Shown one piece after another: positions 1,353 through 27,379 of a stretch of 35,355 nucleotides of DNA. The notes under the pieces are model-generated. The model saw only the letters and a list, made by a program, of their open reading frames with translations. It was not told the DNA's origin and ran no database searches. The stretch spans positions 1 through 35,355 of the forward strand of contig CADADV010000019.1 in NCBI GenBank assembly GCA_902786815.1, given 5' to 3'. Numbering within the stretch: position 1 is the first letter of the stretch; each line of letters opens with the position of its first letter. Origin of the DNA: an uncultured Eubacteriales bacterium (GTDB taxonomy: Bacteria; Bacillota; Clostridia; Peptostreptococcales; Anaerovoracaceae). Made by a program: the position numbers and the translations under genes.

Positions 1353-1471
1353 GCATACGAAGGACAGTATTTGCACAGAACAGTATTTGCCTAAAGGGTA
1401 GTTTTAGTATATAGTTTTTTCGGGTGGATGTATCGGGTGGATACATAACGAAAATAGATAGGAAATGCAGA

Positions 1472-2350
1472 ATGAAAACAAGAAAGAAGAGGTGGGGTGA
1501 CCGTAAGGACGGAAGGCGTTTGCGTACGCGCGAACCCATGAGTGTTGTAGAGACATTTATCCTTGTCGACAGAACCGGATCGACCAACTATATACAGGAC
1601 AAGGTTGAGATCTCAAAGGCAGAGGAATACATCAGGAGAAAGCGGAAAGAAGGCCTGAACGGCTTCGGTCTGATGCATGTGATGGTGGCAACCTATGTCC
1701 GGGTCGCATCGCAGATGCCGGCAGTAAACAGATTCGTCTCCGGGCAGAGGGTCTATGCCAGAAACAGGATCGAGGTGAACATCGACATCAAAAAAGAGAT
1801 GACGCTTCAGGCACCGAACACCTGCGTCAAAATCATTCTCAGCCCGGAAGATACCGCCGAAGATGTTTACCGCAAGATGAAAGCAGTGATCGACGAGGAA
1901 AAAGGCGGTGAAACGGACAGCAGCTTCGATGCGGTCGCTGGAACGCTGGCGAAGTTCCCGAAGCTGGTTTTCAAATTTTCTATTTGGTTTTTGAAACTGC
2001 TTGATTATTTCGGCCTTCTGCCGAAGTATCTTCTGGACGTGAGTCCGTTCCACGGCAGTTTCTTCATTACTTCCATGGGATCGCTGGGAATCCCGCCGAT
2101 TTTTCATCACCTGTACAATTTCGGGAATGTGCCGATTTTCTGCGCGATCGGACCGAAGCGAACGGAGTATGAAATCAACAGAAACGGGGAAACGGTCAAA
2201 AAGAAATATATGGATTACACATTCTCAACCGACGAGAGGATCGTGGATGGTTATTACTATGCGACGGCTTTCAGGATGATGAAGCTGTGCTTCAGTGATC
2301 CTGATAAGCTGGATCTTCCTCCGGAGAAGGTTGTAGAAGATATAGAATAG
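1472..2350 (+). CDS. 2-oxoacid dehydrogenase E2-like acyltransferase domain protein, catalytic His replaced
   Basis: The 292-residue protein resembles the CAT/E2 acyltransferase catalytic domain alone, without lipoyl or subunit-binding domains. It begins with a basic stretch containing WGDRKDGRRLR. The segment HGSFFITSMGSLGIPP (194-209) and the C-terminal DERIVDG (254-260) match E2 motifs, but the normal DHRxxDG has Glu255 in place of the catalytic His. Standard acyl transfer is therefore doubtful, and the protein may bind rather than transfer acyl groups, or use another base. A GTG at 1424 would add 16 residues; I prefer the ATG at 1472 because AGGA lies 8 bases upstream and the basic N-terminus is typical. 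No E1 or E3 genes are nearby. Confidence 0.75.
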   Translation: MKTRKKRWGDRKDGRRLRTREPMSVVETFILVDRTGSTNYIQDKVEISKAEEYIRRKRKEGLNGFGLMHVMVATYVRVASQMPAVNRFVSGQRVYARNRIEVNIDIKKEMTLQAPNTCVKIILSPEDTAEDVYRKMKAVIDEEKGGETDSSFDAVAGTLAKFPKLVFKFSIWFLKLLDYFGLLPKYLLDVSPFHGSFFITSMGSLGIPPIFHHLYNFGNVPIFCAIGPKRTEYEINRNGETVKKKYMDYTFSTDERIVDGYYYATAFRMMKLCFSDPDKLDLPPEKVVEDIE

Positions 2351-2356
2351 AAAATG

Positions 2357-2365
2357 TGGTATACT
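2357..2365 (+). promoter_or_regulatory. Extended -10 promoter of the acyl cluster
   Basis: TGG followed by TATACT (2360-2365) forms an extended -10 just after the E2-like gene. No good -35 is seen at 17 bases. It would drive the MaoC/ACP/LuxE-LuxC genes. Confidence 0.5.
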
Positions 2366-2394
2366 GATACGGAATAAGCCAAGAGGCAGGACCT

Positions 2395-2415
2395 ATGGTA
2401 AGTCAGGATGGATAA
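2395..2415 (+). other. Six-codon upstream reading frame overlapping the MaoC start
   Basis: ATG at 2395 has AGGCAGG (2384-2390) four bases upstream and runs MVSQDG to a stop at 2413-2415, which overlaps the MaoC start at 2408. The MaoC ATG itself has no well-spaced ribosome site, so the small frame could couple translation. This is an inference from spacing only. Confidence 0.3.
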
Positions 2416-2851
2416 TCAGAAAAAACGCAAACTGCACATCGGCGACAGCGCTGAAATCACAAAGAAGTTCACAGAAGAAGATATCGGGCAGTTCGCAGAA
2501 CTGACGATGGACGACAACGGGATCCACACAGATGCGGAACTGTCCCGCAGAGGCATCTTCCGGCGTCCGGTGGTGCACGGTGTTTTTGTCGGGAATCTGA
2601 TTTCCTCCGTCATGGGGACGAAGTTGCCGGGGCACGGCACGATCCTGCAGGAGATGAACTGCAGATATGTGAATCCGGTCTATCCCGGAGATACAGTCAC
2701 AGCCAGGGTGACTCTGACGGAAACGGAGGAGCAGCCGCGGTACTATACCGCCACACTAAAGGGAATCTGCGTCAATCAGGACGGGATCACGGTCGCAGAG
2801 GCGGACTGCAGGCAGCTGATGCTGAAACGGTTTTTCGAAGTAATAGGATAA
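2408..2851 (+). CDS. MaoC-like hotdog-fold (R)-hydratase/dehydratase
   Basis: The 147-residue protein has the length and motif of single-domain MaoC-type hydratases, which add or remove water at the 2,3 position of enoyl/3-hydroxyacyl thioesters. The hydratase motif is visible as DDNGIHTD (35-42), with Asp35 and His40 in the catalytic positions and Gly where Pro is usual, followed by RPVVHG (53-58). An in-frame stop at 2399-2401 fixes 2408 as the first possible ATG. It is the first gene of a cluster with a carrier protein, so its substrate may be an acyl-ACP. Whether it works on CoA or ACP thioesters cannot be told from sequence. Confidence 0.85.
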   Translation: MDNQKKRKLHIGDSAEITKKFTEEDIGQFAELTMDDNGIHTDAELSRRGIFRRPVVHGVFVGNLISSVMGTKLPGHGTILQEMNCRYVNPVYPGDTVTARVTLTETEEQPRYYTATLKGICVNQDGITVAEADCRQLMLKRFFEVIG

Positions 2852-2891
2852 GGATGCAAAAGCATATACACAGTATAAGAAAGGACATATC

Positions 2892-3137
2892 ATGACAAAT
2901 CTTGAACAGTACAACAGAGCATTTATGCTGAATTTCAGATTAAAGGAAGAAGACCTGCCGGGTCTTGAGTACATGGGAATCATCCAGTGGGATTCCGTGG
3001 GACACATGGATCTGATCGCAGATATCGAGTCGGCGTACGGAATCCAGATGGATATGAAGGACGTGCTGGATCTTTCAACCTATGAGAAGGGACTGAAGAT
3101 CCTGTCAGAGAAATACGGCGTCAATTTTGACGAGTAA
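2892..3137 (+). CDS. Acyl carrier protein
   Basis: The 81-residue acidic protein has the ACP size and the phosphopantetheine site in WDSVGHMDL, with Ser35 as the attachment residue. The usual DSL is DSV here and a Trp precedes it, which sets it apart from a housekeeping fatty-acid AcpP. GAAAGGA lies just upstream of the ATG. Its stop codon is one base from the ATG of the next gene, so the two are translationally linked. It presumably holds the acyl group passed between the ligase, LuxE-LuxC and MaoC proteins. An Sfp-type PPTase that could modify it is encoded at 26831-27379, but the pairing is inference. Confidence 0.85.
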   Translation: MTNLEQYNRAFMLNFRLKEEDLPGLEYMGIIQWDSVGHMDLIADIESAYGIQMDMKDVLDLSTYEKGLKILSEKYGVNFDE

Positions 3138-3138
3138 T

Positions 3139-3786
3139 ATGAACATCACGAAACTAACTTCGGTCAAAACGATCTGCAACAGCTACCTCATCGAGGAAGA
3201 CGGCTTTGTCGTGATCATCGATCCGGGTCAGGACGGCGTAGTGGAGGCGGAAATCGACAGCAAAGGTTATCAGCCCGAGTATATACTGCTGACCCACGAG
3301 CATTTTGATCACGTGCAGGATCTGGAAGCCGTGCGTGAAAAATACGGCGTTCCCGTGATTGCAAGCAGGACCTGCAGCGAGCGGCTGGGGGATCCGAGGA
3401 CAAACTTGTCGATCATCGAAGATATCCTTTCATACTATAAGACCGGCGTGGTCTCAGAGGAGAAATCGCCCCGGTTTGTTTGCCGGGAAGCGGAGATCAC
3501 CTATGAAGGGGAATATGATTTAGTCTGGAGAGGACACAGCTTCACGTTTATCGAAGCGCCTGGACATTCCCCGGGTTGTGTGCTGATCACATTGGACGGA
3601 GAATACTGCTTTACCGGTGATTACATGCTTTCAAACGAGGAGCCAACATTGAGGCTGCGCGGCGGAAACGAGGCGGATTACCGGAATATCACTGTGCCTA
3701 TCCTGGAAATGATTCCGGACGGAACGAAAATCTGTCCCGGACACGGCGTTTCTTATACTAAAGGCCATGAAACTGAAGCAGAATAA
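3139..3786 (+). CDS. Metallo-beta-lactamase fold hydrolase, glyoxalase II-like
   Basis: The 215-residue protein carries the binuclear metal motif THEHFDH (H53, H55, D57, H58), then H143 (PGHSPG), D161 (FTGDYM) and H202 (PGHG), a full ligand set for a GloB-type thioester hydrolase. A TTG at 3127 would add four residues, but the ATG at 3139 directly after the ACP stop is the simpler start and suggests coupled translation. In glyoxalase II the substrate is a glutathione thioester. Within this cluster an acyl-ACP or acyl-CoA thioesterase, or detoxification of an aldehyde adduct, is a reasonable inference. No C-terminal glutathione-binding domain is present. Confidence 0.85.
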   Translation: MNITKLTSVKTICNSYLIEEDGFVVIIDPGQDGVVEAEIDSKGYQPEYILLTHEHFDHVQDLEAVREKYGVPVIASRTCSERLGDPRTNLSIIEDILSYYKTGVVSEEKSPRFVCREAEITYEGEYDLVWRGHSFTFIEAPGHSPGCVLITLDGEYCFTGDYMLSNEEPTLRLRGGNEADYRNITVPILEMIPDGTKICPGHGVSYTKGHETEAE

Positions 3787-3818
3787 TACTGAAGCATAAC
3801 AATACAAAGGCAGAAATC

Positions 3819-6101
3819 ATGAAACGGGAAGAATTTCTGGAGCAGGAGCCTTTCAGTGTTTCACAGACTGACAAGGAAGTTCTGTACAGAGAACAACTGA
3901 AAGAACTGACTAAAAATCATCGTACAGCATGTAAAGCTTACGATGATATTTGCAATGGGCTGAATGAGGACGGGCCGTATCTGCCGGTTTCTCTGTTCAA
4001 GGATATCGACTTGAAGAGTGTGCCCGATGAGAAAATCGTCCGGCGCATCACGTCTTCAGGCACGACAGGCCAGCAGGTTTCCCGCATCTATCTCGATGCA
4101 GACACATCGGTCCTGCAGCAGAGAGCGCTCTGCACGATCACCGGTGATTTCATCGGGACGAAGCGCATTCCGATGCTCATCATCGACTCCCCGGACGTGC
4201 TCCGGGATCGAAGCAAATTCACGGCCAGGGGCGCAGGGATCCTGGGCTTCTCCATGATGGCGTCAAAGCGTATTTACGCCCTTGACGAAAACATGCGGCT
4301 CGACATGGAATCCCTGAAACAGTTCGAAGAACTTGCAAAAGCAGGACCGACATTCGCGTTCGGTTTTACGTATATGATCTGGGAGTATCTGTATGAGGCG
4401 CTGCGTGAGGAGGGAAAGACCATTGATCTCCCCGGCTGTCATCTGATCCACGGCGGAGGCTGGAAGAAACTGCAGAGCAGGAGCGTTTCGGATGAGGCGT
4501 TCCGGGTCGGGCTGAAAGAAGTCTGCGGCATCAGCAGCGTCAGCGATTACTACGGAATGGCAGAGCAGACAGGGAGCATCTTCATGCAGTGTGAAGAGGG
4601 ACATCTGCATGCAAGCATATATTCAGACATTTCGATTCTCGACCCGGAAGATTTTTCAGAATGCGGTGAAGGCCAGTGGGGCCTGATCGCACTGGATTCA
4701 CTCATTCCGGGTTCCTATCCTGGGCACCGGCTGCTTACAGAAGACTGGGGCAGGATACTGGGTACTGACAACTGCCCATGCGGCCGCAAAGGCAAGTATT
4801 TCGAGATCAGCGGCCGGATCAAAAAAGCCGAAGTCCGCGGCTGCAGCGATACCTTCGAGGGGACAGCTGCAAAGGCATTCCCGCAAGGGCGGCAAGAAAA
4901 CCTGCAGATCCTTGCCGGCACTTATCCGCCGGAAGAATCTGTGAAAGAACTGTTTGCGCCAACTGTAATGGATTTCCTGGAGGAACTTTCGAAACTCTTC
5001 ATGAAAGATCCGGCGTACCGCCGGTATCCGGAAATCTACGCCTTAGGCTTCTGGTGCCGAAGAGCCCATATTGAGAAGATCAGCAGCAGGTACAGCGCGG
5101 GCAGCCGCCGCGGCAAGGGATTGACCCTGCACATCGCGCCGTCGAATATGCCGACCATGTTTGCCTATTCATGGATCACATCGCTTCTGGCCGGCAATCC
5201 GAATGTCGTACGCCTGTCCGGCAGGGAATCCGAGATCACAGCGGCAACACTGCGCGGCATCGAGCAGGTGCTTGGTATACCGAGCTTCGAGCAGCTGCGC
5301 CTGCAGAACGTCTTTGTGACGTTCCCGCGGGGACACGCTGCGCTGGAGAAATTGTCCCTTCAGGCAAAAGCAAGAGTCGTTTGGGGCGGCGATGAGACAG
5401 TTCGAAGCATTTGCAGCATTCCGAAAGGGACAGACTGCATCGATATCACATTCCCGGACAAATACTCTGTGGCTTTGCTTAACGCAAGCGACCTCAGAGA
5501 CATCGATGAGAGAGAACTGAAGCATCTGGCGCATCTGTTCTTCAACGACACCTACGGAGCGGATCAGAATGCCTGCTCCAGCCCGCGGACCGTATTCTGG
5601 ATCCGCGAGAAGGTTGCGGACGATACGGAGCAGATCAAAGACAAATGGTGGAACGCTGTCGCAGAAGAAGCAAAGGCATACGATCTGCAGCCGTGGATGG
5701 CCACGGAGAAATACAGAATGCTCTGCAGATATTTCGCGCAGCAAGAAGGTCTGGGACCCGCCAGAAAATGGGGCAACCGGCTGTATGTCGTGCCGTGCGG
5801 CGCGTATAAGGGCGATCTGAGCGTGCTGGAGGCCCGGTTCGGTCTGTTCTATGAGAGGGAAATCGACAACATCGATGAAATGATCCCATTCATGGAGGCG
5901 AAGATCCAGACCGTCGTCAGCAGCGGCGATGATCAGGAAGAGATATATGAAGAGATACGCAGCGCGGACTGCCCGGGCGGCGACAGAGTCGTCGCAATCG
6001 GAGAGGCGCTGGATTTCAATGTTGTCTGGGATCGCAAGGACCTGGTGGAGTTATTATCATGTACTTTTTTGAACGAAGAGACGAATACAAAAACAGAATA
6101 G
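3819..6101 (+). CDS. LuxE-LuxC fusion: acyl-protein synthetase plus acyl-CoA/acyl-protein reductase
   Basis: The 760-residue protein joins two parts of the fatty acid reductase complex that are separate in luminous bacteria. Residues 1-355 are LuxE-like: an adenylate-forming core with SSGTTGQ (79-85), YYGMAEQTGS (244-253) and RGCSD (340-344). Cys342 lies where the acyl-accepting Cys of LuxE is expected. Residues 375-745 are LuxC-like, with TLHIAPSNMPTMFAYSW (436-452), VVWGGDETV (520-528) and the reductase nucleophile Cys586 in QNACSSPR. The expected reaction is ATP-dependent acyl activation, transfer to Cys342, then NADPH-dependent reduction to an aldehyde. AAAGGCAG precedes the ATG. The 3' end overlaps the ligase gene by 43 bases. 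No luxA, luxB or luxD is present. Confidence 0.88.
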   Translation: MKREEFLEQEPFSVSQTDKEVLYREQLKELTKNHRTACKAYDDICNGLNEDGPYLPVSLFKDIDLKSVPDEKIVRRITSSGTTGQQVSRIYLDADTSVLQQRALCTITGDFIGTKRIPMLIIDSPDVLRDRSKFTARGAGILGFSMMASKRIYALDENMRLDMESLKQFEELAKAGPTFAFGFTYMIWEYLYEALREEGKTIDLPGCHLIHGGGWKKLQSRSVSDEAFRVGLKEVCGISSVSDYYGMAEQTGSIFMQCEEGHLHASIYSDISILDPEDFSECGEGQWGLIALDSLIPGSYPGHRLLTEDWGRILGTDNCPCGRKGKYFEISGRIKKAEVRGCSDTFEGTAAKAFPQGRQENLQILAGTYPPEESVKELFAPTVMDFLEELSKLFMKDPAYRRYPEIYALGFWCRRAHIEKISSRYSAGSRRGKGLTLHIAPSNMPTMFAYSWITSLLAGNPNVVRLSGRESEITAATLRGIEQVLGIPSFEQLRLQNVFVTFPRGHAALEKLSLQAKARVVWGGDETVRSICSIPKGTDCIDITFPDKYSVALLNASDLRDIDERELKHLAHLFFNDTYGADQNACSSPRTVFWIREKVADDTEQIKDKWWNAVAEEAKAYDLQPWMATEKYRMLCRYFAQQEGLGPARKWGNRLYVVPCGAYKGDLSVLEARFGLFYEREIDNIDEMIPFMEAKIQTVVSSGDDQEEIYEEIRSADCPGGDRVVAIGEALDFNVVWDRKDLVELLSCTFLNEETNTKTE

Positions 6102-7333
6102 CCTGCATCGATGACGAGGGCAGGGAATATACCTACGCGGAGCTTTGGGACATGGGCGATGCGCTGACGGCTGACTGCAAAGGCGTTGTGGTTTTGGAAT
6201 GCGGAAATGACGCGGAGAGTCTCGCCCGATATCTGGCGCTTCTAAGAAAGGGATGCCCGGTCATTCTGATTGGCAAAACCCTGGAGGAAGAAGCCAAAAA
6301 AGCGTTCCGTGAAACATATGAAGGAGAGTATCCTGTCGATCCGGCACTGGGGCTTTTGCTGTCCACGTCCGGGAGCACAGGAGACAGGAAACTGGTCCGG
6401 CTAAGCTACGACAATATCCAGGCGAACTGTGATTCTATAGTGGTGTATCTTGGCATCACGCAGGATGAGAGACCGATCACGACCCTGCCCATGGAATACA
6501 CCTATGGTCTGTCGGTGCTCCATTCCCATTTAGAAGTGGGCGCAACAATTATATTGACGAACAAGACCCTGTTTGAAAGCGAGTTCTGGGACAAGGTGAG
6601 CAGATACGAGGTCACATCCATGGCAGGCGTGCCCTATACCTATGAAATGTTTGAGCGGCTTCGGCTGCGCAGTCAGGATCTGCCGCATCTCAAGACACTG
6701 ACCCAGGCCGGCGGGCACCTCAGCGAGGAACTGCAGAAGAAGTACGCCCAGTGGGCGGCTGAGACAGGAAGACGTTTCTTTGTCATGTACGGACAGACGG
6801 AGGCGACGGCCCGTATGAGCTACATTCCGCCGGAAAAATGCGCTGAGAAGATCGGCAGCATCGGAATCCCGATTCCGGGCGGGAGCATGATGATAGCTGA
6901 GGACGGAGAACTGATCTACTTCGGCGCCAACGTATCCATGGGCTACGCCAGATGCAGGGAAGACCTGGCGCTTGGTGATGTCAACGGTGGCTGTCTCAAA
7001 ACAGGAGACATGGCGCGTATGGATGAAGAAGGCTACTTCTACATCACCGGACGCAAGAAGCGTTTCGTCAAGATCCAGGGCAGAAGATTCAGCCTCGACC
7101 AGGTGCAGGAGATTTTGCAGGAGGCTTTTGCATGTGAAGAAATCATATGCACAGGAAACGACACCGATGGCATTACAGTGCATACAAGCAGCAGGCAGGT
7201 CGCGGACAGAGAGGACGAGATCCTGCAGCTGTTCATGGATAAATGGCAAGTCAGAGCAAGGCTTGTTACAGTCAGGTATCTGGAGGAGATCCCGAGAAAC
7301 TCTTCGGGGAAGGTTTTATATTCAAAACTGTAG
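6059..7333 (+). CDS. Short AMP-binding acyl/aryl ligase
   Basis: The 424-residue protein is a member of the ANL adenylating family and is about 80-100 residues shorter than usual at the N-terminus. Core motifs are present: STSGSTGDRK (102-111), YGQTEA (244-249), KTGDMARMDEEGYFYITGR (314-332) and the C-terminal catalytic Lys418 in RNSSGK. It should activate a carboxylic acid as an acyl-AMP and load it onto a thiol, plausibly the ACP encoded at 2892. GGTGGAG at about 6045 lies inside the LuxE-LuxC gene, and the 43-base overlap indicates coupled translation. The cluster thus has two acyl-adenylating proteins, this one and the LuxE domain. The substrate is unknown. Confidence 0.85.
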   Translation: MYFFERRDEYKNRIACIDDEGREYTYAELWDMGDALTADCKGVVVLECGNDAESLARYLALLRKGCPVILIGKTLEEEAKKAFRETYEGEYPVDPALGLLLSTSGSTGDRKLVRLSYDNIQANCDSIVVYLGITQDERPITTLPMEYTYGLSVLHSHLEVGATIILTNKTLFESEFWDKVSRYEVTSMAGVPYTYEMFERLRLRSQDLPHLKTLTQAGGHLSEELQKKYAQWAAETGRRFFVMYGQTEATARMSYIPPEKCAEKIGSIGIPIPGGSMMIAEDGELIYFGANVSMGYARCREDLALGDVNGGCLKTGDMARMDEEGYFYITGRKKRFVKIQGRRFSLDQVQEILQEAFACEEIICTGNDTDGITVHTSSRQVADREDEILQLFMDKWQVRARLVTVRYLEEIPRNSSGKVLYSKL

Positions 7334-7344
7334 AGGAGAGACAT

Positions 7345-8487
7345 ATGCAGTACAGAAAATTCAATGCAGAAGAAAGGGAAATATCGCTTCTTGGATTTGG
7401 TATCATGCGGCTTCCGAGGCTGGAGAACGGCAAGGCGGATGAAGAGCAAAGCATACGCATGATCCGGCATGCGATCGATCAGGGCGTCAATTATATTGAC
7501 ACTGCATATTCCTATCACGATGGGGACAGCGAACGAATTTTAGGCAAAGCCCTCAAGGACGGTTATAGAGAAAAAACTATGATCGCGGACAAGCTGCCTA
7601 CATGGCTTATCAAGAAAGAAGAAGATATCCAGCCGATCATTGAGGAACAGTTCAAACGGTTGGATGTAGATTTCATCGATTTTTATCTGGTCCACAACAT
7701 CATACCGGAAGTTTGGGAGATGATCCAGGAGACAAACATGTTCGATCATCTGCAGAAACTGAAGAATGAAGGACGTATCGGACACATTGGCTTCTCATTC
7801 CACGGGAATTACGATTTGTTTACGGAAGCGATCGATGCATACCCCTGGGAATTCTGCCAGATCCAGCTCAATTATCTGGACACGGAAATTCAGGCGGGAC
7901 TGAAGGGCCTCGAATATGCCCGTGAGCGCGGCATCGATGTGATCATCATGGAGCCGCTGAAGGGCGGACGGCTGTCTGATAAAGTACCGCCAGACATTCA
8001 GGAAATCTGGGATCGCGCAAAGGCAGAGGGCGTTGTATCTGCTGACAGATCGCCGGCAGAATGGGCGTTCAAATGGGTCGCAAGCCAACCCGGCGTATCG
8101 CTGATCCTCAGTGGAATGAGCACATTCGGACAGCTGGATGAGAATATAGAGATATTCTCAAAAGAGGACGTCGATCAGATGACGCAGGACGAACTTGCCG
8201 TCTGTGAGGAAGCTGCAAAGAAGTACAACAGCATGATCAAATACCAGTGCACAGCCTGCAGATACTGCATGCCGTGTCCGCAGGAACTGGATATCCATAT
8301 CGTGATACGGCATCTCAACAACTGGTACGCCTTCGACAAAAATCCAAGCAGCAAGCTGGAGTATACGGAATGGCTTGACAAGCACGGCTCGGACTGCGTC
8401 CACTGCCATGCCTGTGAGGCGAAGTGCCCGCAGCGGCTTCCGATTTCGGATATTATGACAGACGCCGAAGAACAGTTCGGTTTTTAG
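7345..8487 (+). CDS. Aldo/keto reductase with C-terminal 4Fe-4S ferredoxin-like domain
   Basis: The 380-residue protein has an aldo/keto reductase barrel with the catalytic tetrad D52, Y55, K83 and H117. Its C-terminal tail has two cysteine clusters, C302/C305/C308/C311 and C351/C354/C357/C361, each followed by Pro, typical of 4Fe-4S binding. This architecture is common in anaerobes and implies electron transfer through ferredoxin as well as or instead of NADPH. The frame is open upstream to 7243, inside the ligase gene, but the ATG at 7345 with GAGGAG at 7333-7338 is the natural start. It is 11 bases after the ligase stop. It could reduce the aldehyde made by the LuxC domain to an alcohol (inference). 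Confidence 0.88.
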   Translation: MQYRKFNAEEREISLLGFGIMRLPRLENGKADEEQSIRMIRHAIDQGVNYIDTAYSYHDGDSERILGKALKDGYREKTMIADKLPTWLIKKEEDIQPIIEEQFKRLDVDFIDFYLVHNIIPEVWEMIQETNMFDHLQKLKNEGRIGHIGFSFHGNYDLFTEAIDAYPWEFCQIQLNYLDTEIQAGLKGLEYARERGIDVIIMEPLKGGRLSDKVPPDIQEIWDRAKAEGVVSADRSPAEWAFKWVASQPGVSLILSGMSTFGQLDENIEIFSKEDVDQMTQDELAVCEEAAKKYNSMIKYQCTACRYCMPCPQELDIHIVIRHLNNWYAFDKNPSSKLEYTEWLDKHGSDCVHCHACEAKCPQRLPISDIMTDAEEQFGF

Positions 8488-8513
8488 AGGGAGCAACTAA
8501 GAAGGAGAAGATT

Positions 8514-9727
8514 ATGATTCTTCCGGAAGCAGTCAGGAAACTGGATATTCCAAAGATGGTGAAAATAACACAGCTTTTCCCGGATGATCATCTGGAGGAT
8601 ACGGCAGCGGCAGTCAGAGATGCTGCTGCTCCTTTTGCTGCTGAGATGAAAGAAGGAGCATCAGTCGCAGTACTCGCCGGAAGCCGCGGGATCCGGGTAT
8701 CGACCTGATCGTGAAAACGGTCGTGGAGGTTCTGCTGCAGGCGGGCTTGAAGCCGTTTATCGTTCCGGCCATGGGGAGCCACGGCGGCGGCACGTCGGAA
8801 GGGCAGGAGCAGATCCTCCGGGATTACGGCATCACCGAGGAGACCATGGGAGTTCCGATCAACTCCTCCATGGAGACAGAAATCATCGGACAGATGCCTG
8901 ATGGTATCCAGGTGCATTTTTCCAAGCCGGCCCTCGCGGCCGACTACGTGATTCCTGTGTGCCGTGTCAAACCGCATACGGATTTCTCCGGTCCGATCGA
9001 GAGCGGACTGTGTAAGATGCTGACCATTGGCGGCGGCAAGCACAACGGATGCTCCACGATCCACCGCCAGGGGTTCCCGGCGTTGGCGCATCTGATTCCG
9101 GACGCGGCGCGCGTGATACTTGACACCGTGAATGTGCCGTTCGGACTTGCCGTCATTGAGAACGCCTTTGATAAAACGCACACGATAGAGGCTGTTCCCG
9201 GCGGCGATATCCTCACCAGGGAACCGGAACTGCTGAAACTGGCAAAGAGCCTGATGCCGCGTATCCAGTTCGATGACATCGACGTACTGATCGTCAGCAG
9301 GATAGGCAAGGACATCAGCGGGACCGGCATGGACCCGAACATCACAGGAAGAGACTCTTACGGACAGATCCCCGGCGCAGTCCCGCGCATCAAACGGATC
9401 ATCATCGAGGATCTGACGGAAGGCGCGCACGGCAACGCCATCGGCTTCGGGGCGGCAGATTTCATTTTGCGCAGCGCCTTTGACAAGATCGATCTGGCTG
9501 CGACTTACACGAACGGCATGGCTTCAGGCAATCCGGAAGGAGCGAAGATCCCTGTGATCTGCGAGTCAGAAGAAGAGGCTGTCCGCGCAGCGATCCAGAC
9601 CTGCGCAGGGACGGATATCAACAATGTGAAAATCGTGAAAATCATAGATACGCTGCATTTATCCGAAATCGAAGTTTCCGAAAACATGCTGGAACTTTGC
9701 AGTGATGAAAAAGCCTTTTGTTTGTGA
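8514..9727 (+). pseudogene. LarA-like / DUF2088 family protein, interrupted by one frameshift near 8693
   Basis: Two adjacent frames belong to one protein. The first starts at ATG 8514, with AGGAG ten bases upstream, and ends at 8708 after SRGIRVST. The second continues from about 8696 as PGIDLIVKTVVEVLL and runs to 9727. One missing C in the run at 8693-8694 would give SRGIPGIDLI and a continuous protein of about 404 residues. The body has family signatures: VPAMGSHGGG, RVKPHTDFSGP, GLCKMLTIGGGKHNG and GKDISGTGMDPN. LarA itself is a nickel-pincer lactate racemase, but the role of this branch is unknown. A GTG at 8711 could start a shortened product lacking the N-terminus. Sequencing error and real mutation cannot be separated here. 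Confidence 0.8.
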
Positions 9728-9774: not shown

Positions 9775-10551
9775 ATGTATGAAACACTGAAATACGAAGT
9801 CAAAGACGGAATCGCTTATATCACGGTCAACAGACCGGAAGCGCTCAACGCGCTCAACAGCAAAGTCCTTGCAGAGCTCTATGATGCTTTTGCAGAATTC
9901 GATGCTGATGAGGCTGCGAGAGTTGCGATCCTGACAGGTGAGGGAAGATCCTTCGTTGCAGGTGCTGACATTGCAGAAATGGCAAAACTCAACACCATCG
10001 AGGCAAGAGTTTTCGCAAAGGCAGGACACCGGACGATGAACTTCATTGAGAACGTCAGCAAGCCGGTCATCGCTGCAGTGAATGGTTTTGCACTGGGCGG
10101 CGGCTGCGAGCTGTCCATGGCGTGCGATATCCGCATCGCATCCGCAAAGGCGAAGTTCGGACAGCCGGAAGTAGGCCTGGGCCTAATCCCGGGATTCGGC
10201 GGCACCCAGAGACTCTCCAGACTGGTCGGCAAAGGCATGGCCAAGTATCTGATCTATACGGCGGATGTCATCGGCGCAGAGGAAGCCGGACGCATCGGTC
10301 TTGTTGAGAAGGTCGTAGAGCCTGAAGAACTCATGCCGACCTGCGAAGAACTGGCGAAGAAGATCATGAGCAAGGCGCCGATCGCGGTCAGCATCGCTAA
10401 GCACGCGATCAACAACGGCTACGATATGGACATGAAGTCAGCGTCAGAACTCGAAGTCAACTCCTTCGGACTGTCCTTCTCATCAGAAGACATGAAAGAG
10501 GGAACGGCGGCGTTCCTGGAGAAGAGAGCGCCGGAGTTCAAGAACAAGTAA
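9775..10551 (+). CDS. Enoyl-CoA hydratase/isomerase family protein (crotonase, short-chain type)
   Basis: The 258-residue protein is a full-length crotonase. The oxyanion-hole segments AGADIAEM (62-69) and NGFALGGGCELSMACD (103-118) are present, and both catalytic acids of hydratases are kept: Glu112 and Glu132 (QPEVGLGLIPGFGGTQR). The expected reaction is reversible hydration of 2-enoyl-CoA, as in 3-hydroxybutyryl-CoA dehydratase of butyrate pathways. AAGGAGGT lies upstream of the ATG and the gene has its own promoter, so it may be regulated apart from the LuxE-LuxC cluster. No other butyrate genes (thiolase, hbd, bcd, etf) are in the window, so a pathway assignment is inference. Confidence 0.9.
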   Translation: MYETLKYEVKDGIAYITVNRPEALNALNSKVLAELYDAFAEFDADEAARVAILTGEGRSFVAGADIAEMAKLNTIEARVFAKAGHRTMNFIENVSKPVIAAVNGFALGGGCELSMACDIRIASAKAKFGQPEVGLGLIPGFGGTQRLSRLVGKGMAKYLIYTADVIGAEEAGRIGLVEKVVEPEELMPTCEELAKKIMSKAPIAVSIAKHAINNGYDMDMKSASELEVNSFGLSFSSEDMKEGTAAFLEKRAPEFKNK

Positions 10552-26830: not shown

Positions 26831-27379
26831 ATGAAGCTGTACGTGATATTCGACTACAAAGATAAATATCCTGCCTTGTCCGGACGCGCACTGACGGATG
26901 CGCTGATCAGGGAGTGCCTCGGCAGAGAGGACCTCGTCATCAAAAGGAACGATAAGGGTAAGCCGTTTATTGCAGGTCCGGATTCCGCCGACTGCTGCAT
27001 TTCCGTATCACACAGCGAAGGAACTTTTGCTTTGCTTGTTTCAGACCGAAATGTAGGCTTGGATATCCAATACCACAGGGATGTGAAAGCCGACAGGATC
27101 GCCGCAAGATGCTTCCCGGAAGAGGAGGCGGCTTATGTGGCAGATGACCCTGAAGGAAGCAGGTTTTTCACTCTCTGGACACGCAAGGAAGCGTACAGTA
27201 AATACACAGGGTTGGGCATGGAACAGATCATGAAGAAGGAACCTGTACCGGATAACTGCGAGGTCCGGTTCACCGATCTGCGGCTGGAGGACGGATGCTA
27301 CTGTTCGATCTGTTCGGAGCATGCAGAAGAAAAAGGAGGTCAGAAGCCAGATGAAATTCAGATTTCTTATCGAAAATAA
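26831..27379 (+). CDS. 4'-phosphopantetheinyl transferase, Sfp-type
   Basis: The 182-residue protein moves phosphopantetheine from CoA to a Ser on carrier proteins. The family motifs VGLDIQ (75-80, metal-binding Asp78) and FTLWTRKEAYSKYTGLGM (113-130, with Glu120) are intact. It is shorter than B. subtilis Sfp at about 224 residues but in range for stand-alone clostridial forms. It probably heads an eight-gene operon and may be translated from an almost leaderless mRNA. A likely client is the ACP at 2892-3137, as no other carrier protein is in the window. The following gene overlaps its end by 29 bases. Confidence 0.9.
   Translation: MKLYVIFDYKDKYPALSGRALTDALIRECLGREDLVIKRNDKGKPFIAGPDSADCCISVSHSEGTFALLVSDRNVGLDIQYHRDVKADRIAARCFPEEEAAYVADDPEGSRFFTLWTRKEAYSKYTGLGMEQIMKKEPVPDNCEVRFTDLRLEDGCYCSICSEHAEEKGGQKPDEIQISYRK

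Follow-up and report, generated by a model that had tools for sequence, protein, structure and literature searches.

A LuxE-LuxC fusion with its own acyl carrier protein and ligase in an uncultured Eubacteriales bacterium: a conserved gene cluster and candidate acid-reducing module

Carboxylic acid reductases (CAR) and succinyl-CoA reductase (SucD) convert a carboxylate into an aldehyde by way of an adenylate and/or a thioester, a route akin to the one proposed in this work but with carriers and enzymes that set them apart from it, and the LuxE protein of luminous bacteria uses free acid and ATP as substrates. In the sections retrieved from two reports, homologues of LuxE and LuxC from non-luminous bacteria are annotated as fatty acid enzymes, and the product of the corresponding genomic islands is given only as a suggestion, a liposugar component (PMC7874193, PMC4875605). 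According to those sections, an acyl carrier protein (ACP), a 3-oxoacyl-ACP reductase, an AMP synthetase, LuxE and LuxC are found together in the group II flagellin glycosylation islands of Aeromonas (PMC7874193), and ACPs, LuxE, LuxC, ligases and FabG in those of enterobacteria (PMC4875605). Here we analyze a gene cluster organized around a LuxE-LuxC fusion in the first 35 kb of contig C19 (CADADV010000019.1, positions 1 to 35,355; this whole stretch of 35,355 nucleotides is called the window) of the 2.2 Mb genome of an uncultured Eubacteriales bacterium. An earlier note on this DNA knew of no described system with the same set of genes, a statement that is too strong for the core of ACP, ligase, LuxE and LuxC, already published in the flagellin islands. 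We find the module, which belongs to gut and rumen bacteria, to be real and conserved and to vary a kind already known. Of greatest interest is something found beyond the window, a sigma-54-type link between related clusters and a 4-hydroxybutyryl-CoA dehydratase-type gene (AbfD). We see about even chances that the module uses its carrier protein to reduce a short (C4-type) acid to the aldehyde and then to the alcohol.

The conserved unit is formed by five genes on the + strand, encoding a MaoC-like (R)-enoyl hydratase-type protein (2408..2851, 147 aa; PF01575, E 4.6e-18), a dedicated ACP (2892..3137, 81 aa, with Ser35 in WDSVGHM; PF00550, E 0.0018), a metallo-beta-lactamase (MBL)-fold hydrolase that is glyoxalase II-like and a possible thioesterase (3139..3786; PF00753, E 8.5e-23), the LuxE-LuxC fusion (3819..6101, 760 aa; PF04443 and PF05893) and a short AMP-forming acid ligase of the ANL superfamily, presumably the ACP loader (6059..7333; PF00501, E 2.5e-35). 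They are followed on the same strand by an aldo/keto reductase with a C-terminal 4Fe-4S dicluster domain (7345..8487; PF00248, E 4.2e-46, and PF13187), whose start at 7345 is likelier than one at 7243. Intergenic gaps in the run are of 1 to 40 bases, except where the ligase open reading frame (ORF) overlaps the fusion gene by 43 bases. The earlier note had described a run of seven closely spaced genes sharing a strand and starting at 2357. Strand and spacing hold and six of the frames are intact, but the seventh gene, LarA-like, is split between two frames, and position 2357 is non-coding, the first core ORF beginning at 2408.

In the fusion, residues 7-346 correspond to LuxE (PF04443, E 3.6e-44) and residues 428-596 to LuxC (PF05893, E 4.5e-20). 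Among solved structures, its sequence matches the LuxC-LuxE complex of Photobacterium (7xc6, chains A and E). In the alignments Cys342 (EVRGCS) is paired with the LuxE Cys of chain E (EQKGCS), in agreement with its proposal as the LuxE acyl site, and Cys586 (DQNACSS) with the LuxC Cys of chain A (DQQACFS). The AlphaFold2 model of the fusion (pLDDT 89.0, pTM 0.85) is of low confidence only in the linker (347-359) and in residues 752-760, and a Foldseek search with it returned 7xc6 (7xc6_A) at the top, then PaaK-type ligases and aldehyde dehydrogenases. The NCBIfam equivalog models were not passed by the fusion (LuxE, 47.6 versus 550 bits; LuxC, 20 versus 750 bits), and no Pfam match to LuxD or luxAB was obtained among the 10 window proteins scanned. 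Residue conservation was evaluated in 37 loci, namely 20 from the same genus, 10 linked to the dehydratase-type gene and seven that we label glycan-type. Both cysteines were present in all 36 covered rows, as were Gly105, Lys111, Glu248, Asp317 and Lys418 of the ligase (36/36); Ser35 of the ACP, whose PF00550 score of 18.9 bits is below the Pfam cut-off of 20.8, was kept in 34 of 34; and the seven residues of the MBL metal site (GloB TIGR03413, E 8.9e-17, under the model cut-off) in the 29 fully covered rows. In the MaoC-like protein His40 was found in 24/24 and Asp35 in 23/24 covered rows (Asn in L056), residues that we take to be the equivalents of the catalytic pair of PhaJ. The ligase model (pLDDT 90.9) has MenE and other ANL enzymes as nearest folds, with DltA within the first 50; these matches are not diagnostic and were rejected as a guide to the substrate.

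A pattern-based scan of 84,980 species yielded 20 loci, 17 of which (L003-L019) belong to the genus of the window, and when 61 relatives were searched strong matches were confined to this genus. Counting the window together with L003-L019, and setting apart L011, L017 and L019, which are cut by contig ends, the order MaoC-ACP-MBL-LuxEC-ligase was observed in 13 of the 15 genus loci that could be judged; L004 and L005 carry the core without MaoC, and all five core genes are also present in two further genomes (L057, L062). Fusion, ACP and short ligase, whose joint occurrence in other genomes the earlier note had proposed as a check, are thus found together elsewhere and in the same order. This co-occurrence and the conserved catalytic residues support its idea of an acid- or acyl-to-aldehyde system built on the fusion with its own ACP and ligase. 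Sixteen genus loci are readable past the ligase (window, L004-L018). The aldo/keto reductase follows the ligase in 10 of them, in L015 past an inserted ORF; L009 has a 37%-identical aldo/keto reductase and then an iron alcohol dehydrogenase, and in L017 the latter stands alone directly after the ligase. This dehydrogenase is FucO/AdhE-like (AdhE alcohol domain, lactaldehyde reductase). Taking the two unrelated families together, 12/16 loci have an enzyme for aldehyde reduction past the ligase. The assignment of the last step to the aldo/keto reductase is therefore plausible, although not universal.

Six genomes in a 398-genome sample of the phylum gave strong matches, the window's own included; among the other five, two have the genes beside sialic-acid-like genes (L052 and L053, by eye), one holds a distant homologue (L054) and two belong to family f80, in which the LuxE/LuxC pair occurs in 9/17 genomes. 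In these nine genomes and in Clostridium cadaveris LuxE and LuxC are separate proteins, in a run that consists of NifU, a GGCN-MaoC fusion, ACP, MBL, LuxE, LuxC and ligase (L020 in C. cadaveris; L055, L056, L072-L074, L076-L078 and L123 with L075 in f80). The order (MaoC)-ACP-MBL-LuxE-LuxC-ligase is therefore common to two distant groups. In C. cadaveris and the nine f80 genomes the run is divergent to an AbfD-type gene (HpaB family). A single contig holds both in C. cadaveris and in eight of the f80 genomes, and in G467 the island is distributed over two (L075, L123). A CoA-transferase gene follows AbfD in nine of the ten linked loci (not in L056), RpoN follows the run in 8/9 f80 loci, and a PrdR-like sigma-54 activator is present in 8/9 f80 loci and in C. 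cadaveris. This linkage of a LuxE/LuxC unit to an AbfD-type gene appears in no paper searched: no open-licence PMC paper named both "LuxC" and "4-hydroxybutyryl-CoA dehydratase", and none of the matches listed dealt with LuxE/LuxC in fermentation, according to titles and the start of abstracts in a search in which most subscription papers fell outside.

The linked loci were scanned with the -24/-12 pattern TGGCAC-N5-TTGCW, which we take to be the sigma-54 consensus. A site with at most one mismatch was located about 73-118 bp before AbfD in 10/10 linked loci, and a site facing the LuxE/LuxC run in six of them (L020, L056, L072, L074, L076 and L078; not L055, L073, L077 or L123), while letter-shuffled whole-locus controls gave an average of 0.05 to 0.35 sites per locus (nine loci). 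Six unlinked AbfD copies (L079, L118-L121 and L124, two of them from one genome) showed no site with up to two mismatches within 600 bp. When only full-length copies with at least 85% were counted as close AbfD, 9/9 cluster-positive versus 2/8 cluster-negative f80 genomes had one (Fisher p 0.002), an 89% fragment in the cluster-negative G474 not being taken as full. G463, G467, G471 and G473 carry, at about 10 kb or less from AbfD, an iron alcohol dehydrogenase gene that we take for a 4-hydroxybutyrate dehydrogenase, and L076 has a GABA transaminase-like gene. Because of these associations, the f80 loci point to C4 chemistry.

On the basis of the observed gene identities by family, catalytic residues, order, linkage and promoter-like sites, and of the chemistry of these families, we infer that the ligase would adenylate an acid and load the dedicated ACP, and that the LuxE domain would form an acyl thioester on Cys342, starting either from acyl-ACP or, like LuxE itself, from free acid and ATP. 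The acyl group would then pass to Cys586 of the LuxC domain, where its reduction with NAD(P)H would give the aldehyde; in the fusion, acyl donor and acceptor would stay together. The alcohol would be made by the aldo/keto reductase or the iron alcohol dehydrogenase. As a guess, the MBL protein may hydrolyse acyl-ACP for release or editing, in place of LuxD, the MaoC protein may hydrate an enoyl form, and the substrate may be a C4 acid. That the cluster has both the ligase and LuxE as adenylating enzymes would make most sense if each handled its own acid, or if loading of the ACP and formation of the aldehyde belonged to separate branches. We think that the substrate belongs to C4 metabolism (succinate / 4-hydroxybutyrate / 3-hydroxybutyrate-crotonate), since the sister clusters are divergent to the AbfD-type gene and have a sigma-54 control region in common with it; the crotonase gene flanking the locus in the window's genus was counted in favor of this reading. 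A wider proposal, which we regard as rather unlikely, is that LuxE/LuxC, ACP and ligase constitute a new route connecting a free C4 acid with 4-hydroxybutyrate/crotonyl-CoA fermentation. In some anaerobes a sigma-54 regulator would drive its expression jointly with that of the dehydratase, in the rumen genus it would have become fused and stand-alone, and in the glycan islands the same chemistry would provide omega-hydroxyacyl groups for surface sugars. Its simplest case would be succinate to succinate semialdehyde to 4-hydroxybutyrate.

Unrooted gene trees were built for LuxE, LuxC and the ligase. The window's genus and the AbfD-linked islands each fall on one side of a branch in the LuxE tree (genus, 99/100; AbfD-linked, 96/96) and in the LuxC tree (100/100 and 98/93), from which six of 29 rows had been dropped by a length/stop filter (L010, L013, L014, L055, L078 and L054). 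The two groups are joined against the glycan-type rows in the LuxC tree at 88/84 only. Several observations weigh against a C4-reducing module, beginning with the LuxE tree, where the AbfD-linked rows join L021 (94/92) and not the genus, and the ligase tree (L054 dropped), where C. cadaveris groups with glycan-type rows (96/94). Four of the 16 readable genus loci (L004, L005, L006 and L013) have neither aldo/keto reductase nor iron alcohol dehydrogenase after the ligase, and the window contains no sigma-54 site with at most one mismatch. The ten linked loci are not independent, since nine of them come from one family, and the island of G467 looks damaged, with the ligase in two ORFs and MBL at a contig end by a transposase-like ORF (by eye). 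The AbfD label itself is a family match plus setting, NCBIfam giving only 4-hydroxyphenylacetate hydroxylase models, under their cut-offs. Similarly, the iron alcohol dehydrogenase of f80 scores 79.9 of 500 bits with the NCBIfam 4-hydroxybutyrate dehydrogenase model, which is not its best match, and a close homologue is absent in G440 and C. cadaveris (best about 30%).

Further points of this kind come from AbfD copies away from the cluster. In f80 they comprise L118-L120 and L124, the last of these being the second copy of G462. Since two of them are accompanied by MaoC, NifU and GldA (L120, which also has a GGCN protein, and L124), the links of MaoC, NifU, GGCN and GldA may be a property of AbfD rather than of the LuxE/LuxC unit. 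For the window's genus, AbfD was located on a different contig (L079; C33) with its own NifU-like, CoA-transferase and iron alcohol dehydrogenase genes. Within this genus, a test of whether AbfD co-varies with the cluster was negative: AbfD was found in 14/19 cluster-positive and 14/18 cluster-negative genomes (p = 1), a count over the 37 genomes in both searches that took as positive LuxE/LuxC matches with E below 1e-30 and AbfD matches with E up to 1e-10, included fragments and the 56% match of G027, and left out G458-G461, present in the AbfD search only. Finally, the C4 substrate is a proposal made from gene setting, and ATP-to-AMP activation would be costly for fermentation.

Concerning the surroundings of the cluster, a crotonase-type short-chain enoyl-CoA hydratase gene (9775..10551, + strand; PF00378, E 7.3e-74) flanks the locus in the window, and an EamA transporter gene adjoins the cluster in several relatives, which qualifies the earlier statement that no transporter is present. 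Upstream, many genus loci carry genes similar to NuoE and NuoF together with a multi-domain oxidoreductase of 1167 aa (GltD-like and NuoG/formate dehydrogenase-like), which we take to resemble NADPH-forming transhydrogenase complexes; the window's contig starts too late to show this region. Twelve cluster-negative loci of the genus were fetched, three of which (L107, L109 and L111) end too soon. L100 and L101 keep EamA and crotonase at the same place and have a permease-like gene and a FadX-like CoA-transferase gene instead of the LuxE-LuxC cluster (L100:7198-10159, L101:3938-6879), in L110 crotonase comes directly after the 1167-aa oxidoreductase with nothing between, and L102-L106 and L108 have various other genes past the oxidoreductase. 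Since these flanks can enclose other genes (L100, L101) or nothing (L110), the cluster looks like a swappable cassette with crotonase and EamA as its flanks. Upstream of the core, a gene for a CAT-like/2-oxoacid dehydrogenase acyltransferase catalytic domain (1424..2350, + strand; PF00198, E 6.7e-08) is a neighbor only in the window's subclade, being found beside the cluster in nine of 20 genus loci (L011, L017, L029 and L031, included in the 20, do not extend far enough to reveal it). It has no lipoyl domain, and its catalytic His seems replaced, because DERIVDG is read at the position of His-x-x-x-Asp-Gly, which we assume to be the usual CAT/E2 motif. Crotonase, EamA and the CAT-like gene were rejected as core parts, given the persistence of EamA and crotonase in the cluster-negative L100 and L101 and of crotonase in L110.

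Other functions have been considered for the same genes. A system of the Lux type, in which long-chain acyl groups from fatty acid synthesis would be converted into fatty aldehyde or alcohol for lipids or a signal, without luciferase, would fit with LuxE and LuxC being the closest solved relatives and with an MBL hydrolase that could stand for LuxD. The earlier note had remarked that no elongation enzyme is present, which is true locally, but contig C12 of the same genome carries an ACP and two ketosynthases together, also in line with such a system. We nevertheless judge it quite unlikely, in view of the equivalog scores far under cut-off, a second setting, in the AbfD-linked islands, that resembles C4-CoA metabolism, a cluster without visible lipid gene, and a separate ligase at every locus whose contig reaches the ligase place. 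It is also unlikely that the cluster furnishes a surface glycan with an unusual N-acyl group, a function suggested for flagellin glycosylation islands, the glycan genes being elsewhere in the genome. In favor of it, the CAT-like gene is of acyltransferase type, and ACP, ligase, LuxE and LuxC occur in the Aeromonas and enterobacterial islands mentioned above. Glycan genes are annotated in two of the seven glycan-type loci (L113, L114), were recognized by eye in three (L022, L052, L053, the last two those with sialic-acid-like genes) and were not seen in L021 and L112; no MaoC homologue was found in any of the seven, which counts against this reading. A plasmid search gave 13 records, of which four were examined: similar sets are present in Deinococcus, in an exopolysaccharide locus with an acetyltransferase, in one of ten Rhizobium records, with an acyltransferase and a transketolase, and in Ponticoccus, where LuxC is 2 kb off on the other strand, and the Nonomuraea record has no annotation at the matching place. 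In the genus loci whose ORFs were listed (window, L004-L007, L009, L010, L013-L015 and L017) no glycosyltransferase was recognized by eye beside the cluster, no family scan being involved, a second point against a glycan role. That LuxE/LuxC make a 4-hydroxybutyryl group for glycans is speculation; neither "4-hydroxybutyryl" nor "nonulosonic" appeared among the matches listed for the glycan question, and a term search of the main text of a report on Clostridium flagellar glycosylation (PMC13317340) returned no mention of LuxE or LuxC.

The same enzymes could also work in the oxidative direction, from alcohol or aldehyde to acyl thioester through the reductase or alcohol dehydrogenase and LuxC, with the adenylating enzymes yielding acid and recovering ATP, and feed 4-hydroxybutyrate/crotonyl-CoA catabolism. 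The linkage to a dehydratase-type gene, the sigma-54-type control and the permease-like gene and GldA-like dehydrogenase of several loci would suit this possibility, as would the ATP cost of the reductive direction, hard for a fermenter to pay. Adenylate-forming enzymes, however, normally run toward the thioester, we know of no precedent for LuxE in reverse, and the genes upstream of the cluster in the genus, if they are indeed transhydrogenase-like as we presume, suit reduction, so that we give the oxidative direction a slim chance. It is highly improbable that the seven-gene pathway operates as first drawn, with LarA as a working step, although all seven genes share a strand and are closely spaced. 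In the window the reading frame of the LarA-like gene breaks near position 8,700, since the N-terminal piece (8514..8708; E 2e-07) and the C-terminal piece (8711..9727; E 9.2e-138), both on the + strand and in different frames, match NF052515 (nickel-pincer isomerase group 22); the C-terminal piece alone reaches 459 bits versus a cut-off of 400. The break would be either a real frameshift, and hence a pseudogene, or an assembly error; LarA occurs in nine of 41 same-genus genomes searched, and the other eight have open frames of 398-430 aa. The gene adjoins the cluster in only 7/16 genus loci, is found without it in cluster-negative members of the genus (genome G012, locus L101), and is on another contig in G017, so that it was rejected as a core part and is regarded as a neighbor. 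The family PF01969 of LarC, involved in cofactor biosynthesis, has two matches in the window's genome (G000), and "group 22" is not mentioned in the retrieved portions of two LarA papers (PMC12393405, a preprint, and PMC11770544).

Several other elements were observed along the analysis. An Sfp-type phosphopantetheinyl transferase-like gene (26831-27379; AusB-like, E 4.5e-13, under cut-off), located 17 kb from the cluster, could encode the ACP activator. At the contig end, a 74-base tandem repeat of 4.4 copies (183-506) lies in a stretch where each of the three forward frames is interrupted by stops. An AbfD operon of another kind, with gene names given partly by eye, is present in L120:3812-12359 and L124:7904-16383 and includes pyruvate:ferredoxin oxidoreductase-like and acyl-CoA dehydrogenase-like genes, MaoC, AbfD, NifU, GGCN (L120 only) and GldA. 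The GGCN domain, defined by the motif CGGCNxRY and several cysteines and with no Pfam match, is fused to MaoC (L056:11836-12537, L020:8297-9067) or alone (L120:10966-11244); in the loci read it was seen near AbfD only, and perhaps serves the Fe-S cluster of AbfD. Downstream of the CoA-transferase gene, L055:15925-17427 and its homologues encode permease-like proteins of 480-500 aa without Pfam or NCBIfam match.

The AbfD linkage and the common sigma-54-type region provide a concrete and testable substrate class for a carrier-protein module which, if the proposal is true, would link an ACP-based step of aldehyde formation to the butyrate chemistry of gut and rumen. The cluster hints at an unexpected use of enzymes best known from luminous bacteria, and the natural LuxE-LuxC fusion is a ready-made candidate for a single-chain carboxylic acid reductase. 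Compared with the gene group of the Aeromonas and enterobacterial islands, the window cluster has four of the five members in common (carrier protein, ligase, LuxE and LuxC), with LuxE and LuxC as one protein and the aldo/keto reductase in place of the SDR enzyme, no SDR reductase being found among the 10 scanned window proteins or, by eye only, in the remaining ORFs; it adds MaoC and MBL and has no recognized glycan genes adjacent. The C. cadaveris and f80 islands have the same order as the window cluster, but differ from it in the separate LuxE and LuxC, the fusion of MaoC to the GGCN domain, the presence of NifU in the operon, and the nearby sigma-54 regulator (with RpoN in most f80 loci) and divergent AbfD-type gene, none of which is beside the window cluster. 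Unlike the system of luminous bacteria, the window cluster has its own ACP and ligase, and nothing matching LuxD or luciferase among the scanned proteins. With the LuxC-LuxE fatty acid reductase (PDB 7xc6) it has in common the folds, both catalytic cysteines and a presumed acyl relay, the pair being fused here in one chain with a LuxC part of about 395 aa, versus a chain of 477 residues.

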